DNA from: Parvularcula sp. BBD 1991-13
GTDB taxonomy: Bacteria > Pseudomonadota > Alphaproteobacteria > Caulobacterales > Parvularculaceae
Assembly: GCA_001657385.1 (NCBI GenBank)
Contig: LYSZ01000001.1
Span: 682,001 to 746,000, forward strand
Reading direction: 5' to 3'
DNA: 64,000 nt
A program made the position numbers and the translations under genes. The notes beneath the pieces were generated by a model, which worked only from the letters and a program-made list of their open reading frames with translations, searched no databases and was not told the origin of the DNA. Of this stretch, positions 56,305 to 63,345 are shown piece by piece; positions within the stretch are counted from its first letter, which is position 1, and every line of letters begins with the position of its first letter.

Positions 56305-56333
56305 TTGCGACACCTGTAGCACTGAGCTAGTCT
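56305..56333 (+). promoter_or_regulatory. promoter of the blaI-like gene
   Basis: TTGCGA and TAGTCT are separated by 17 bases. The predicted start lies in the palindrome at 56335-56348, so a bound repressor would block initiation. Confidence 0.6.
56309..56318. promoter_or_regulatory. imperfect BlaI/CopY-type operator in the promoter spacer
   Basis: GACACCTGTA matches TACA-N2-TGTA at seven of eight fixed positions. It lies between the -35 and -10 boxes. Confidence 0.45.
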
Positions 56334-56334
56334 C

Positions 56335-56348
56335 GTTACAGATGTAAC
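56335..56348. promoter_or_regulatory. BlaI/CopY-type operator palindrome
   Basis: GTTACAGATGTAAC is a perfect 14-base dyad containing TACA-N2-TGTA, the core bound by BlaI/MecI/CopY repressors. It sits directly downstream of the -10 box of the gene for a repressor of that family. Confidence 0.7.
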
Positions 56349-56406
56349 AGCAGCCGCCATCCGGGCGGCGAAGCGGAACGACGGCGGATGGAAAGGCGGC
56401 GCGCTG

Positions 56407-56793
56407 ATGACCGATGTGAAGAACGCGGATCCGACCAAGCCGGAACTGGCGATCCTGAAACTTCTGTGGCGGGGGCGCGATCTCAACGCCCGGGAAATCC
56501 ACCAGGACATCAAGGACGAGTTCGGATGGTCCTACTCGACCGTGCGCACGGTGCTCGAGCGCATGAGCGACAAGGGGCTGATCTCGAAAACCGCGTCCGA
56601 GGGCGTCAACATCTACGCCGCCCGGGTCGGCAAGGTGACGGTGCTCGGCAAGATGATCGCCGATTTTTCAAAGCGTGTTCTTGAACTCGACGCCGCGCCG
56701 GGCGCAGCGTTCTTTTCCGATTCCAAACTGCTTTCCGAAGATGAGCTTCAGGAACTTGAAGACGTGCTCCGCGACGAGGAGGAACGCTCATGA
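56407..56793 (+). CDS. BlaI/MecI/CopY-family transcriptional repressor
   Basis: A 128-residue winged-helix repressor. ELAILKLLWRGRDLNAREIHQDI and GWSYSTVRTVLERMSDKGLI are the DNA-binding domain, and the C-terminal part is the dimerisation domain. In BlaR1/BlaI systems the M56 partner causes cleavage of the repressor within this family's C-terminal half. The stop overlaps the start of the M56/M23 gene by four bases, so the pair is co-translated. A matching operator lies upstream. Confidence 0.92.
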   Translation: MTDVKNADPTKPELAILKLLWRGRDLNAREIHQDIKDEFGWSYSTVRTVLERMSDKGLISKTASEGVNIYAARVGKVTVLGKMIADFSKRVLELDAAPGAAFFSDSKLLSEDELQELEDVLRDEEERS

Positions 56794-58976
56794 TCGCGCC
56801 GACATCCCCGCCGGTTCCGTTTTCGGCCCTTGCCGAACCTTTCTTCGTCTGTCTCCTCGCCTCGATGATCTGGGCGCCGATCGTCCTCGCCATGACGGCG
56901 CGGCGCCGTCCGGACGCCGCCGCGGCGGACAAGGTCTGGCCCCTCGCCCTTTCCATCGCCGCGCTGCCGGCGCTCGCTGCACCCCTGGCCGCGGCCCTCG
57001 GCGTCTCCCTGCGCGCCGCGCCGGCGCCCATGCCCATCCCGCCCTTGCCCATCCCGGCCATGCCCGTCGCGGCGTCCGGCCCCGCCGCGTTCGTCCCCCT
57101 CGCCGCGCCCCTCGCCGCGGCGCCGGCGCACCCCTCCGGCGTGACGCTGGCCGCGCTGTTCGAGGCGTCGGCGGCATTGTATCTCTACGGATTTTTGATG
57201 TTCATGGCGATCGGCGTCGCCCGGCGGATCTGGTTTTCCTATCGCGTCGGCTATGCGACGCCGATGGACCATCCCCGGCTGGAAGCGGCCTTCGAGGACT
57301 GGCGCCGGCGCATCGGCGTTCGGCGCAAGCCCCGCTACGCCTTCACCGACGCGGTGACGAGCGTGTGCGTGCATGGGATCGCGCGGCCGGTGGTCCTGAT
57401 GCCGGACGCCCTGCTGGAGCATGTCGGCGAACGCGACGTCGAGCTGATGGTCGCTCACGAAATGGCCCACGTCAAACGCGGCGATACGGCGCTGTTCGCC
57501 TTTTGCGGCGTCATCAGGGCGATCTTCTGGTTCAACCCGTTCATGCAGCGGATCGCCGCGCGCGCGGCCCTCGCCGCCGAGCAGGCGGCGGACGCCCTGG
57601 TGATCGCCGCCGGTGCGGAGCGCCGGCGCTATGCGCGCTGCTTCGTGGAGGGATTGCGCTTCGCCGCCGCGGACGGGCGTTTCGGCGAGCGCGCGCTCGT
57701 TCCCTCCTTCACGCCGTTCGACCGCCGGTCGCGGCGCGCCCGGCTCGACGCCATTTTGTCCGGACGCGGTGCGCCCGGCATGACCTGGCGGGGGCGCGTC
57801 GGCGTCGTCGTCAGCGTCGCCGCCGCCGCCGGCCTCGCCTTCGCCCAGGCCGCCCTCGCGGTTGCGCCGCGAACGGATGAAGTCCTGTCCCATGCGCCCG
57901 TGAACGGCAAGGTCGTCGCCGGCTTCGCCAAGCGCGAAATCAGTCTTGACGGCGACCCGCAGGATCACACCGGCGTCGATATCGTCGCGCCGCGCGGGAC
58001 CAAGGTGCGCGCCGCGGGCGACGGCGTCGTGTCAGCGGCGACCGACCGCTATCGCGGCCTGACCGCCTGGGGCAACGTCGTCGTCATCGACCATGGCGGC
58101 GGGCTGATGACGCGTTACGCCCATCTTGACCGGTACTCGGTCGCGGCAGGCGATCCGGTGAAGGCCGGCGAGACCATCGGCGCGGTCGGCGACACGGGCG
58201 AAACGCGCGGGCGCGCTCATCTGCACTTCGAAGTCATCGACAACGGCGTTCCCGTCGATCCGGCGCCGATCGTCCTGCCGGACCCCATGTCCATGCCCGC
58301 GCCGGCTCCGCTTGAAGCGTCCCCGCTTTCTCCGACGCCGCCCGCCCCGGTCGAGGCGGCGCCCGGCGCGCCTCTCCCCGGCAAGATCGCCAACGGCGTC
58401 GCCATGCTGAAAACGGCGCCGGCGTTCTCGCCCATGGCCGCGCCCCGCCCGGCCGAAGCGCCCGACCCGGTCGACGTCCCGGACAGCGTGACTGAAGCCA
58501 TCGCGAACGGCGCCATGAACGGAGAATTTGCCGGCGCGATCATTATCGCCGAGGCGCATGATTACGCATTCGATGTCGACGTCGACCACGACAACCTTCC
58601 CGACGCGGAGGAAGCGCGTATGGAGGCGGCTCTTGCGCGGCGAGAAGCCGCCCAGGCGCGCGCCGAAGCAGCGCGTATCAAGGCTCAACACGAACGCGAA
58701 CGCGCCAGGGCCGAACGCGAGCGCGCCCGGCAGGAACACATGGCGGCGAAGCTGGAACACGCCCTCGACAAGGCGATGCGCGAACGCGACGAGGCGGTCG
58801 CGCGCATCGAGCGCGCCTTCACCGACCGCGGCGGCGTCCCCCTCGTCTCCGAAAAAGAGATCCTGGCGATACAGGAGCAGGCCCTGCGCGACGCTCAGGA
58901 CGACCTCGCCCGCCGGCTCGTCGAGTTGGAGCGCCGCCGCGCCGAACTGGAGCGCGCCGAGAAGGACGCAGAATAG
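56790..58976 (+). CDS. M56 (BlaR1-like) and M23 fused metallopeptidase
   Basis: A 728-residue membrane protein. N-terminal hydrophobic helices (about 17-36, 50-70, 125-145) and an M56 catalytic part with HEMAH (223-227) and downstream Glu in LAAEQAADALV follow the BlaR1 pattern. A further helix (about 335-358) leads to an extracytoplasmic M23/LytM endopeptidase domain with HTGVD (His393, Asp397), YAHL (His445) and HLHF (His477, His479). A Pro-rich linker and a charged coiled coil (about 600-728) end the protein. Where BlaR1 has a penicillin-sensing domain, this has a peptidoglycan peptidase domain. It is coupled to the BlaI-type gene. NCBI uses the name M23/M56 for similar architectures, as I recall. 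Confidence 0.88.
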   Translation: MIAPTSPPVPFSALAEPFFVCLLASMIWAPIVLAMTARRRPDAAAADKVWPLALSIAALPALAAPLAAALGVSLRAAPAPMPIPPLPIPAMPVAASGPAAFVPLAAPLAAAPAHPSGVTLAALFEASAALYLYGFLMFMAIGVARRIWFSYRVGYATPMDHPRLEAAFEDWRRRIGVRRKPRYAFTDAVTSVCVHGIARPVVLMPDALLEHVGERDVELMVAHEMAHVKRGDTALFAFCGVIRAIFWFNPFMQRIAARAALAAEQAADALVIAAGAERRRYARCFVEGLRFAAADGRFGERALVPSFTPFDRRSRRARLDAILSGRGAPGMTWRGRVGVVVSVAAAAGLAFAQAALAVAPRTDEVLSHAPVNGKVVAGFAKREISLDGDPQDHTGVDIVAPRGTKVRAAGDGVVSAATDRYRGLTAWGNVVVIDHGGGLMTRYAHLDRYSVAAGDPVKAGETIGAVGDTGETRGRAHLHFEVIDNGVPVDPAPIVLPDPMSMPAPAPLEASPLSPTPPAPVEAAPGAPLPGKIANGVAMLKTAPAFSPMAAPRPAEAPDPVDVPDSVTEAIANGAMNGEFAGAIIIAEAHDYAFDVDVDHDNLPDAEEARMEAALARREAAQARAEAARIKAQHERERARAERERARQEHMAAKLEHALDKAMRERDEAVARIERAFTDRGGVPLVSEKEILAIQEQALRDAQDDLARRLVELERRRAELERAEKDAE

Positions 58977-59098: not shown

Positions 59099-62000
59099 AT
59101 GGGCCTTACCCGACTCTGTCTTCAAAACCCGGCGGCGGCGGCGGTGGCGCTCGCGTTGGTCATGCTGCTCGGCGCGATTTCCGTCACCCGCCTGCCGGTC
59201 CAGCTGTTCCCCGCCATCGAGCGGCCTGAAATCAGCATCCACACCATCTGGCGCGCCGCCTCGCCGCGGGAGATCGAAAGCGAGATCACCGATCCCATCG
59301 AGCGCGAGTTGAGGGGCGTGCCGGGCGTGACGCAGATGCGTTCATGGTCGAACCAGGGGGATGTCTGGATCAATCTCCAGTTCGCTCTGGGTACGGACAT
59401 GAATTCAGCTTTTACGGAGGTGAACGCGCGCCTGCAACGGGTGCGGGGCCTGCCGGCGGAAGCGGAGCGCCCGCGGGTGCAGATCGGCGGCGGCAACAAC
59501 AGCGGGGAGACCCTGATTTTCCTCTTCCTGCAGCGCCTGCCCGGCGACGGGCGTGCGGCCATGCGCCTCAGCGATTTCGCCGAGGACCGCATTGCGCCGG
59601 CGCTGGAGGCGGCGCCGGGCGTCGCCGGCGTCGAGGTCAACGCCGATGAGGGGGAAATGATCATCGAGATCGAATACGATCCCTTTCTCGCCGCGCAACT
59701 CGGGCTGACCGTCGACGACATCGCCGAGAATATCAACCGCTCGACCGATGTCAGCGGCGGCTCGGTCGAGGTCGGGCGGCGCAATTACACGCTCCGCTAT
59801 GAGGGGCGTTTCGACGCCGACCAGTTGAGCGACACCATTCTCGCCTGGCGGGACGGCGCCCCGGTCCGGCTTGGCGACATCGCCGCCGCGCGAGTGACCG
59901 CGGACAACCGGGGCGGCGTCGTCTATCAGAACGGCAATCCGGCGATCGGCATGCGCGTCCTGCGCGAGCCGGGCGCGAACACGCTTGAGGCGATCGACGC
60001 GCTGACCGAGGTGGTGGACGAACTGAACGCCGGCCCGCTGGCGGAAATGGGCTATGTCCTGGAGAAGAGTTTCGATCCGTCGGTGTTCATCAAGCGCGCC
60101 ATTTCGCTCCTCAGCAACAATCTGATGCTCGGGATCGTTCTCTCCGTGGGCGCGCTATGGCTGTTTCTGCGGCGAACGACGGCGACCCTCATGATCGCCG
60201 CGGCGATCCCGATCTGCCTCATGGCGACGATGGTCGCGCTCAATCTTTTCGGCCGCACACTGAACGTGATTTCCCTCGCCGGGCTCGCCTTCGCGGTCGG
60301 CATGGTGCTCGACGCCGCGATCGTCGTTTTGGAAAACTTTGTGCGCATGCGCGAGGAAGGGCGCTCGCGTTTCGAGGCGGCGAACGCCGCCGTGGCGCAG
60401 GTGTTCGGCGCGCTCTTCGCCTCCACCGTGACGACGGTGGCGATTTTCATTCCCATCATGTTCTTCGAGGACGTTGAGGGCCAGCTTTTCGCCGATCTCG
60501 CCCTGACCATCGCCATCGCGGTCTCCTTCAGCCTGCTCGCCGCGGCGACCCTGCTGCCGGCCGGCGCGGCGCTGTTCGTGCGCGATGACGGCGCAGCCCG
60601 TCGCGCGGGCGGCGCCGCTTCCCGTCCCCGGCTCGCCGGGCGCATCGCCGACGCCGTCATGGCGCTGACCGCCAGCGGCCCGCGCCGCCTGTCGATCATT
60701 ACCGGGCTGACGGTCGTTCCCGTCGTTCTCGCCGCTCTCCTGTGGCCGCCGCTGAACTATCTGCCGCCGGTCAAGCGCGATGCGGTCGACGCCCATATCA
60801 GCTTTCCTTCCGGCGCGAGTCCGGATCTGATCCGCGAGGAATTCGCAGAGGTCGTGGTCGAGCGTCTCGCGCCCTATATGAGCGGCGAGAAAGAGCCTTC
60901 CTTACGCAACTATTACCTGTTTACCGGCCCGTGGGGGGCCAATACCGGCATTCGCGTCAACGATCAGTCCCGCATCGACGATATGGTCCGTATCGTGAAC
61001 GAAGAGATTCTCGCCGGCTTTCCCGACACCCGCGTTTTCGCCCGCCAGGGGGATCTGTTCGGAAACTGGGGCGGCGGCGCGTCGATCGGGCTGCAGCTCC
61101 AGGCGGCTGATTTCGAGGCCCTGGGCGCGGCCGCGCCCCTCGCCATCGACACGGTGCGCGCGGCCCTGCCCGGCGCGCAGGTCTGGCCCGATCCGGACCC
61201 GCAGATCGTCTCGCCGGAATTGCGCCTGATCCCCAACGACCGGCGCATCGCCGAGACCGGCCTTACCCGCGACGCGGTCGCGCGCACGGTGCGCGCCCTG
61301 GGCGACGGGCAGTGGCTCGGCGAGTTCTTCCACGAGGACGGGCGGCTCGATATCTATCTGCGCGCGCGGGAATGGACGGCTCCGGAATATCTCGAAACGG
61401 CGCCGATTGCGACGCCGACCGGGGCTGTCGCGCCCCTCGGGGAATTCGTGACCATCGAGCGCGGCGTCGGCCCGCAGCAGATCTTCCGCGTCGACGGGCG
61501 CCGGACCATCACCCTCGCCGTCGATCCCCCCGCCGACATGGCGCTTGGTTCCGCAGTGGATGCGCTCAAACGCGACGCGGAAGGAGCGCTCTACGACATC
61601 CTGCCGCCCGGCGCGTCGATCACATGGAGCGGGGAGGCCGACAGCCTGGCGCGTGCGGTGACCAATCTCGGCGGCAATTTCCTGCTGGCGGTCGTGATCC
61701 TGTTCCTGATCCTGGCGGCGCTGTTCAAGTCCCTGAAGGACGCCGGGCTCGTCATCGTCACGCTGCCCATGGCGACCGTCGGCGGGGTGGCCGCGATCCA
61801 GATCGCCAATCTGTTTACGGATCTTCCGCTCGATCTTCTGGGCATGATCGGGTTCATCATTCTCCTCGGGCTGGTCGTCAACAACGCCATCCTGCTGGTT
61901 TCCCAGACCCGCGCTTCCGAGGCGAAGGGCCTCGACCGGCCGGCGGCGGTGCGCGAAGCGCTGACGCTCCGCATCCGGCCGATCTTCATGTCGACCACGA

Positions 62001-62200
62001 CGTCCCTCATGGGCATGCTCCCGCTGGTGCTGTCGCCCGGCGCGGGCAGCCTCATTTATCGCGGGCTCGCCACGGTCATCGTCGGCGGCATGGCGGTGTC
62101 GATGGCGTTCACGCTGCTGCTGCTGCCGGCGCTCCTGCAACTGGGCGGGGCGAGGACGTCCGTGCGCGACGAAGCGCTTGCGCTGGAGCCGGCGCGATGA
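59099..62200 (+). CDS. efflux RND transporter permease (HAE1/AcrB-like)
   Basis: A 1033-residue RND pump with twelve membrane helices and two large periplasmic loops. It begins MGLTRLCLQNPAAAAVALAL; TM4 holds GLAFAVGMVLDAAIVVLENF with one relay Asp; the second half ends in a TM10 block FIILLGLVVNNAILLVSQ, where AcrB has Lys. The NN form is seen in many non-AcrB RND exporters, so drug or lipid substrates cannot be assigned. AGGAGG precedes the ATG at 59099; an ATG six bases upstream is too close to it. It overlaps the adaptor region by its stop and lies 122 bases from the M56/M23 gene. Confidence 0.9.
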   Translation: MGLTRLCLQNPAAAAVALALVMLLGAISVTRLPVQLFPAIERPEISIHTIWRAASPREIESEITDPIERELRGVPGVTQMRSWSNQGDVWINLQFALGTDMNSAFTEVNARLQRVRGLPAEAERPRVQIGGGNNSGETLIFLFLQRLPGDGRAAMRLSDFAEDRIAPALEAAPGVAGVEVNADEGEMIIEIEYDPFLAAQLGLTVDDIAENINRSTDVSGGSVEVGRRNYTLRYEGRFDADQLSDTILAWRDGAPVRLGDIAAARVTADNRGGVVYQNGNPAIGMRVLREPGANTLEAIDALTEVVDELNAGPLAEMGYVLEKSFDPSVFIKRAISLLSNNLMLGIVLSVGALWLFLRRTTATLMIAAAIPICLMATMVALNLFGRTLNVISLAGLAFAVGMVLDAAIVVLENFVRMREEGRSRFEAANAAVAQVFGALFASTVTTVAIFIPIMFFEDVEGQLFADLALTIAIAVSFSLLAAATLLPAGAALFVRDDGAARRAGGAASRPRLAGRIADAVMALTASGPRRLSIITGLTVVPVVLAALLWPPLNYLPPVKRDAVDAHISFPSGASPDLIREEFAEVVVERLAPYMSGEKEPSLRNYYLFTGPWGANTGIRVNDQSRIDDMVRIVNEEILAGFPDTRVFARQGDLFGNWGGGASIGLQLQAADFEALGAAAPLAIDTVRAALPGAQVWPDPDPQIVSPELRLIPNDRRIAETGLTRDAVARTVRALGDGQWLGEFFHEDGRLDIYLRAREWTAPEYLETAPIATPTGAVAPLGEFVTIERGVGPQQIFRVDGRRTITLAVDPPADMALGSAVDALKRDAEGALYDILPPGASITWSGEADSLARAVTNLGGNFLLAVVILFLILAALFKSLKDAGLVIVTLPMATVGGVAAIQIANLFTDLPLDLLGMIGFIILLGLVVNNAILLVSQTRASEAKGLDRPAAVREALTLRIRPIFMSTTTSLMGMLPLVLSPGAGSLIYRGLATVIVGGMAVSMAFTLLLLPALLQLGGARTSVRDEALALEPAR

Positions 62201-62229: not shown

Positions 62230-63345
62230 ATGTCAGGCAGACTAACCCTGTTCGGCGCCGGCGCCGCAGCGCTGATGATCGCCGGGAGCGCCGCGTTTTT
62301 CTACGGCGAGCGCATCGGCGCCGCGGCCGAGGCGCAGTCCCCCGAGATCCAGGGCCCGCCGCCCGCCGCGGTCGCCGTCGCGCGCATCGAGGCGCGCAGC
62401 CTCGCGCCCCGGGCCGAGGCGCCGGGCTCGGTCGTCTCGCTGCGCGACAGCGTCGTCGCGGCGGCGACGTCGGGCAAGCTGACCTGGGTCGCCGATGTCG
62501 GCGCCGAGGTCGCCGCGGGGGACGTCATTGCACGGATCGATGCGGCGGATGCAACCTTCGCCCGCGACAACAGCCTTGCTGAAATGCGCCGGCTCGCCGC
62601 CCGGGCAAGCTATCTCGACAGCGTGTACGAACGCTTTTCGGGTCTCGGCGAGGAAGGCGGCGAGTCCGAGGCGTCGCTGGAGGAGATGCGGGCGAACCGC
62701 GACGAGGCCGCCGAAGCGCTGGCCCAGGCGGAGGTGGCCCTGCGCCGCGCGGAGACCGAACTGGAGCGGACCGAGGTGCGCGCGCCCTTCGCGGGCCGCA
62801 TCGTCAGCCAGGAAAGCCAGATCGGCGAGTTCGCCTCGCCCGGCGCGGGGCTCGTGCGCCTTGTCGATACCGAGCGCCTGGAGGTCACGGCCAGGGCGCC
62901 GGTCTCGCTGGCGCGCAATCTCAACCCGGGCGACGTTGTCGCGGTCAGCGACGGGCGCGAGCGCCTCGACGCGGCGCTGCGCGCGGTCGTGCCGGTCGGC
63001 GACGAACGCTCGCGCATGCTGGAGCTGCGCTTCGCGCTGCCGGAAAGCGGATGGTATATCGGCTCGGCCGTGCGGGTGAGCCTGCCGGCCGCGGCGGCGC
63101 GCGTCGTCACCGCCGCCCCGCGCGACGCGCTTGTCCTGCGCGCGGACCGCATCAGCGTCTTCATCGTCGACGAAAACGACACGGCGCGGCGGGTGACGGT
63201 GGAGCTTGGGGACGCGGAAGGCGATTACATCGAGGTGATCGGCGACGTGGCGCCGGGCCAGACCGTCGTCATCCGCGGCGGCGAACGCCTGCGGGACGGC
63301 CAGGCGGTGACCGTCTCGGCGATGGACGCCAGCGCGTCGGTCTAG
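62230..63345 (+). CDS. efflux RND periplasmic adaptor subunit
   Basis: A 371-residue membrane fusion protein. A signal/anchor segment (LFGAGAAALMIAGSAAFFYG) precedes the lipoyl-barrel halves (VSLRDSVVAAATSGKLTWV, TEVRAPFAGRIVSQESQIGEFA) around a helical hairpin, and a beta-barrel plus membrane-proximal end. AAGGGAGGG precedes the ATG used; the ATG at 62197 overlapping the permease stop would add 11 residues. Adaptor follows permease, the reverse of the common order. No outer membrane channel gene is nearby. Confidence 0.9.
   Translation: MSGRLTLFGAGAAALMIAGSAAFFYGERIGAAAEAQSPEIQGPPPAAVAVARIEARSLAPRAEAPGSVVSLRDSVVAAATSGKLTWVADVGAEVAAGDVIARIDAADATFARDNSLAEMRRLAARASYLDSVYERFSGLGEEGGESEASLEEMRANRDEAAEALAQAEVALRRAETELERTEVRAPFAGRIVSQESQIGEFASPGAGLVRLVDTERLEVTARAPVSLARNLNPGDVVAVSDGRERLDAALRAVVPVGDERSRMLELRFALPESGWYIGSAVRVSLPAAAARVVTAAPRDALVLRADRISVFIVDENDTARRVTVELGDAEGDYIEVIGDVAPGQTVVIRGGERLRDGQAVTVSAMDASASV

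Follow-up and report, generated by a model that had tools for sequence, protein, structure and literature searches.

What does a BlaR1-like membrane protease respond to when it carries no beta-lactam sensor? To our knowledge there are many such M56 proteins, and their signals are unknown. The question is raised by an operon in Parvularcula sp. BBD 1991-13, in a 64,000-nt stretch of contig LYSZ01000001.1 (here called the window; the genome is 4.24 Mb and 97.95% complete). A gene for a BlaI/MecI-family repressor runs, with four shared bases (56790-56793), into a gene for a 728-residue membrane protein that joins an M56 protease to an M23/LytM domain. We propose, with a probability of roughly 0.6, that the pair is a BlaI/BlaR1-type regulated-proteolysis switch in which the LytM/M23 domain has replaced beta-lactam sensing. 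The architecture, the predicted topology and the conserved operators at the blaI and tonB-like promoters, on which this proposal is built, are computed directly.

A LytM/M23 domain joined to an M56 protease

The pair resembles staphylococcal BlaR1/BlaI and MecR1/MecI in combining a BlaI-family repressor with an M56 membrane protease. The repressor matches Penicillinase_R (PF03965; E 1.1e-21, 77.8 bits against a curated cut-off of 22.6) and, in the PDB, MecI/BlaI entries 1sd6, 1okr and 1sd4. Its partner matches Peptidase_M56 over residues 31-290 (E 2e-25, 90 bits against a cut-off of 31) and Peptidase_M23 (PF01551) over residues 392-491 (E 8.4e-31, 106.5 bits against 28.7). A first-pass annotation of this DNA had described a repressor coupled by a four-base overlap to a 728-residue, BlaR1-like M56 protein with a HEMAH motif; frames, overlap and coordinates hold, both Pfam domains lie above their curated cut-offs, and HEMAH falls at residues 223-227. 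PF03965 and PF05569 (M56) each have a single match in the genome, namely these two proteins. Aligned with MecI, the repressor has F-F at the N-F of MecI, which we take to be the scissile bond for the M56 protease.

Where BlaR1 and MecR1 have a class-D beta-lactamase-like sensor, the protein in the window has an M23/LytM domain followed by a coil. A Pfam search at E 0.1 finds neither a transpeptidase nor a beta-lactamase domain, with M23 in that place, and the blaR1_generic profile reaches 49.4 bits against a cut-off of 400. The predicted topology comprises four membrane helices, with the protease between TM3 and TM4 and the M23 domain after TM4; it is based on the model helices, the charge pattern and a BlaR1 fold match over model residues 16-316. 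The extracytoplasmic M23 domain and the coiled-coil tail that had been read from the sequence both reappear in the structure prediction, the former as a domain after the fourth membrane helix of a BlaR1-like arrangement and the latter as predicted helices at residues 606-679 and 688-727.

Are the two active sites intact? An alignment of 34 relatives addresses this, 31 of them distinct once L080, L081 and L082 are dropped as the same DNA as L010, L023 and L031 (100-110 common 40-mers each, as also between L083 and L032). The M56 residues H223, E224, H227, E264 and D268 are invariant in 34/34 rows and 31/31 distinct relatives, and so are the M23 residues H393 and D397, supplied by HTGVD, and H477 and H479, supplied by HLHF. 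The earlier impression that the M23 metal residues are intact is thereby confirmed. We take H393, D397 and H479 to be the zinc ligands, and the roles given here to H477 and H445 are likewise presumed. H445 is the histidine of the YAHL motif, which is catalytic in LytM-type enzymes; it is replaced by Gln in eight of the distinct relatives (L023, L024, L028, L029, L030, L036, L037 and L038), five of them same-genus, and is retained in the window's own protein. A zinc site that is kept while the catalytic-type residue varies is easier to reconcile with ligand binding than with obligatory cleavage, so the alignment favours binding over cutting by M23; with H445 present, M23 activity is possible in the protein of the window itself.

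Two alternatives bear on these residues. The M23 domain might act chiefly as an active wall hydrolase, with M56 as its anchor; the protein would then be an enzyme under regulation and not a sensor. This would suit the retained H445, the zinc ligands present in every row, and the PDB sequence matches to endopeptidases such as ShyA, zoocin A and lysostaphin; given the H445-to-Gln changes, the invariant M56 residues and the location of M23 at the sensor position of BlaR1, we regard it as unlikely. Alternatively, a cytoplasmic peptidoglycan fragment might act on BlaI directly, leaving M56/M23 a separate or modulating role. That BlaI adjoins M56/M23 in 23/24 relatives' loci (the 24th, L016, begins inside the operon) and that the M56 catalytic residues are kept in all 34 rows make this improbable, even with the precedent of a wall-turnover dipeptide reported to bind to BlaI/MecI and weaken the complex with DNA (PMC3305447).

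Conserved operators and a predicted regulon

If the repressor belongs to a switch of the BlaI/BlaR1 type, where does it act? One operator over the -35 element and spacer plus one just past the -10 element is a classical layout for repression, and TACA-N2-TGTA-like sites are the operator consensus of BlaI/MecI systems. Both features are found at the blaI promoter, where operators 1 and 2 (Table 1) lie 28 bp apart on either side of the -10 element. The same-genus set of blaI promoters contains 24 loci, the window's own included, of which 23 are usable because L016 begins inside the operon. Two boxes exactly 28 bp apart occur in 22/23 (L018 is without the second box), and TTGC[TG]A-N17-TAnnnT occurs in 23/23. 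A strict sigma-70 consensus scan of the region finds no promoter match, so the -35/-10 assignment rests on this conservation. Outside the genus, the spacing is 19 bp in L033 and L085, and L034 and L084 have a single box. The exact pattern TACANNTGTA occurs at 4 places in the genome, against 40 for the reversed-pattern control; rarity is by itself no proof of function, and it is the conserved 28-bp pair that lifts the motif above chance. The two operators around the -10 element, and the autoregulation that had been suggested from them, have thus gained comparative support: sites at its own promoter predict that BlaI would bind there and probably represses its own operon.

The genome-wide dyad search proposed in the first-pass annotation allows candidate targets to be named, and the first of them is an unlinked gene for a TonB_C-domain protein. 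Among the exact TACANNTGTA places, one is at blaI, two stand in tandem before the TonB_C gene, whose promoter region is C12:202950-203010, and one lies between divergent genes. A third, imperfect box (matrix score 16.7) follows the tandem pair, and within the genome the extended pattern GYTACNNNTGTARC is confined to the promoters of blaI and the tonB-like gene. An operator matrix was built from 22 boxes of 11 congener blaI promoters, with the window's own promoter left out. Scores of at least 14.5 occur within 250 bp before 17/18 TonB_C orthologues, own included, and in 0/273 oriented windows from the same loci set (maximum 12.9). The threshold of 14.5 was chosen afterwards as the minimum among the 17 positives, and the corresponding Fisher p of 1.3e-26 is uncorrected for shared ancestry. 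The correctly anchored paralogue loci L057-L059 score -0.5, 1.9 and 2.9 (L060-L062 were left out as wrongly anchored). A first background (205 windows, 95th percentile 9.9, maximum 26.0) was replaced because its unoriented loci may hold real promoters. Operator position ranges from -85 to -183 before the tonB-like gene, and the window genome's copy has three boxes; individual sites therefore turn over while the operator persists. Across the genus, GYTACNNNTGTARC has a match in 21/28 genomes, and 13 of the 24 loci kept precede a tonB-like gene, as judged from N-termini. A composite operator pattern gives 11 matches, partly by construction since it was drawn from those loci, with no second match in any genome; the blaI promoter in the window is not among its matches. 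Together, these observations suggest that the BlaI regulon would comprise blaI-M56/M23 and the unlinked TonB_C-domain gene, unlike BlaR1/BlaI and MecR1/MecI, whose blaZ or mecA target is not seen here.

What might the candidate target do? It shares the TonB_C domain with TonB. Classical TonB also has an SxxxH motif in its N-terminal helix, whereas in none of the 18 TonB_C orthologues does a His fall within the N-terminal hydrophobic helix (L041 carries its His at residue 2, and L047 at the helix's outer end). Coupling to ExbBD is therefore doubtful, and the protein may bind the wall or a partner rather than act as a motor.

The TonB_C gene also lends some weight to a third alternative, in which outer-membrane or transport stress is sensed and the M23 domain docks a partner, for instance an amidase or the TonB-like protein. 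A TonB-dependent receptor gene adjoins the M56/M23 gene of Stenotrophomonas rhizophila (L102), M56 is fused to TonB-type sequence in L111 (below the cut-off) and L146 (a local match), and the top VIA-align match of the M23 domain is the LytM domain of EnvC, an amidase activator. EnvC has lost its zinc ligands. The domain in the window, which unlike the LytM-fold proteins EnvC and DipM is part of a membrane-protease fusion with a coil after it, has kept them, and Foldseek places a peptidoglycan peptidase (6jmy) first. We see this alternative as having an outside chance, and better prospects than the anchored hydrolase.

Table 1. Positions of features in the window and of the unlinked candidate target (last line, numbered within locus L008)
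Feature	Position	Strand	Remarks
Inferred blaI promoter	56305..56333	+	-35 TTGCGA 56305-56310, 17-bp spacer, -10 TAGTCT 56328-56333
Operator 1, GCGACACCTGTAGC	56307..56320	.	imperfect; over -35 and spacer; matrix score 21.5
Operator 2, GTTACAGATGTAAC	56335..56348	.	perfect 6+2+6 dyad just 3' of -10; matrix score 22.7
BlaI/MecI-family repressor	56407..56793	+	128 aa; open reading frame and Pfam
M56/M23 membrane protein	56790..58976	+	728 aa; open reading frame and Pfam
TM3 (121-145), M56 protease region, TM4 (333-357)	57150..57860	+	predicted
HEMAH motif, residues 223-227	57456-57470	+	M56 active site, with downstream E264, D268
M23/LytM domain, residues 368-495	57891..58274	+	H393, D397, H477, H479, H445 of YAHL
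C-terminal predicted coil, residues 605-728	58602..58973	+	48% charged; model helices
RND efflux permease (AcrB-type)	59099..62200	+	PF00873 E 4.4e-184
RND periplasmic adaptor	62242..63345	+	TIGR01730 E 3.3e-53; start provisional
TonB_C protein, 188 residues	L008:4097-4663		PF03544 E 9.8e-14

The proposed switch, its possible output and the points against it

Genes for an RND pump lie 3' of the operon. In the window, the gap between M56/M23 and the AcrB-type permease is 116-122 bp (the MGLTR start of relatives favours 59099 over 59093) and holds neither promoter- nor terminator-like matches. An AcrB-type permease follows M56/M23 in 20/24 relatives' loci (23 same-genus and one from another genus), and adaptor matches also occur in L080-L083. 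RND genes are missing after M56/M23 in L015 and L016 (genomes G026 and G019), where an HPr gene is next; L028 ends too early to include them, and L032 shows none, while L083, a record of the same DNA, has an RND gene. By conserved gene order it is plausible that the pump belongs to the regulon, perhaps co-transcribed with M56/M23 by read-through.

How would such a switch work? In BlaR1, the sensor domain passes a change on to M56, after which BlaI is broken down and the repressed genes are freed (PMC7593790). By analogy, we infer the signal, the contact with the wall, BlaI binding and cleavage, pump co-transcription and the physiological role. At rest, BlaI dimers on both operators would silence blaI-M56/M23, perhaps with the RND pump via read-through, as well as the unlinked TonB_C-domain gene. 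The periplasmic LytM/M23 domain with its coil would engage peptidoglycan or a wall-remodelling partner, and an altered contact would be passed through TM4 to the cytoplasmic M56 protease, much as beta-lactam acylation is in BlaR1. M56 would then cleave BlaI, releasing the sensor, the TonB-like protein and probably the pump as an envelope response. More tentatively, and at odds that we put below even, such proteins may form a BlaR1-like receptor class in which a zinc-bearing LytM domain, catalytically degenerate in some lineages, directly reads the state of peptidoglycan and, through BlaI proteolysis and with no beta-lactam input, coordinates an efflux pump with a TonB-like protein running from inner to outer membrane. 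If true, this class would constitute a wall-to-outer-membrane homeostasis circuit.

Several observations weigh against the proposed switch or its predicted output. First, the structure model has a mean pLDDT of only 69.4, and the relative at L085 (4968-7133) combines M56 and a coil-rich tail with BlaI and a pair of operators spaced 19 bp apart, with no M23; there is also no AcrB match within that locus. Second, the operators are not uniformly placed or enriched. In L014, the pair is placed upstream of blaI at a distance ~320 bp greater than in the window, and when up to 2 mismatches are allowed TTACANNTGTAA occurs at 251 places against 679 for its reversed control, so operators are not enriched at low stringency. 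Third, the TonB_C gene and the switch do not always occur together. An orthologue at this level is absent in 6/24 same-genus genomes searched, three of which are 98-100% complete (G008, G012 and G013); L056 is an orthologue for which the matrix finds no operator in the 250 bp upstream; and G005, G006 and G009 (84-85% complete) have operator-bearing tonB-like genes and no orthologous M56/M23, with no BlaI match at all in G005. Many congeners also hold two or more BlaI, so an operator can be clearly assigned to its repressor only in genomes with one BlaI. Fourth, no operator is present between M56/M23 and acrB in the window itself. Among 22 such gaps, a clear operator is found in two, L084 (24.7) and L033 (17.4), neither of them from the genus; the L021 gap, at 12.6, does not reach the background maximum of 12.9, and L020 has a weaker look-alike.

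The domain pair itself is already known; the main new result here is the predicted regulon. A review lists M23+M56 among the M23 proteins with other catalytic domains, which together make up <1% of matches, and says that no role of M56 in wall cleavage has been demonstrated (PMC9662197). It concerns the same pair of domains, and the accessible part of its account contains no operon, operator or regulon. Searches of the open-licence literature turned up no paper that we recognised as describing a signal or regulon for an M56/M23 protein. Here the operator is defined, the predicted regulon is small, the genome has one BlaI and the ligand class of the sensor domain is known. What non-beta-lactam BlaR1 proteins sense thereby becomes directly testable, and the system would connect the sensing of the wall with a TonB-like protein and, perhaps, an RND pump.

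Other operator-like sites and relatives

Not every operator-like site was taken into the regulon. The fourth exact TACANNTGTA (C21:114082) lies between a divergent aminotransferase-like frame (assigned by eye) and a PF00171 aldehyde dehydrogenase; it is a possible promoter site, though with a matrix score of -1.1 it was not counted. The pattern GYNACANNTGTNRC occurs at 8 places in the genome, against 15 for the reversed control, and those in L193, L195 and L196 (scores 7.5, 16.0 and 5.3) were rejected as lying inside open frames. Also rejected was L199:1501 (C23:138626), which scores 23.2; it coincides with a terminator-like hairpin stem where convergent frames meet, and is thus a trap for operator scans. 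In other genomes, GCTACATATGTAGC stands directly before esterase-type genes in L160, L161 and L164 (near position 1501), of which those of G003 and G022 match PF00756 and that of G008 is similar by resemblance. A CarboxypepD_reg protein gene lies behind an exact operator in G010. These genes of G003, G008, G010 and G022 were kept out of the regulon because each genome has two to five BlaI above the cut-off. In G024, which has a single BlaI match and 88% completeness, GCTACAAGTGTAGC precedes a PF00144 beta-lactamase-family gene (L181:1501); as this was found in one genome only, it too was kept out.

How widespread is the protein? Of 27 other same-genus genomes, 22 have a full-length M56/M23 relative that shares 53-62% identity across most of residues 1-499. 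In G027, the gene is split over two frames (L032 and L083) by a frameshift or an assembly error, and G005, G006, G009 and G014 (84-86% complete) are without a full-length relative; G006 has a divergent M56/M23-type match beside BlaI (32% identity, residues 189-493). Outside the genus, G032 has a relative with 43% identity, and other genera and families contain shorter M56/M23 proteins. A search of plasmids gave no match reaching 80% query coverage, and the 15 records listed, of 3516, match the M23 part only. With an M23 profile made from the relatives, at least five M56 frames match (L080, L081, L082, L084 and L102) among the 80 named-genome loci listed, and in L083 the match is in a separate frame from M56.

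The distant M56/M23 protein of S. rhizophila (L102) has BlaI just upstream, and the sole perfect operator site of that genome is at its own promoter; a two-mismatch site (L192), a short way upstream of a predicted frame, was taken as chance. The TonB-dependent receptor gene lies directly 3' of the BlaI-M56/M23 pair (L102:6072-8246). Other C-terminal partners of M56 were also encountered: a TonB_C-type C-terminus in a Caulobacter metagenome-assembled genome (MAG) (L111:4476-6260; 23.2 bits, under the cut-off of 24.6), a TonB-type C-terminus, as a local match, in an Acidobacteria MAG (L146:4956-5990), and, in Luteimonas, ankyrin repeats that replace the sensor domain (L133:4518-6038).
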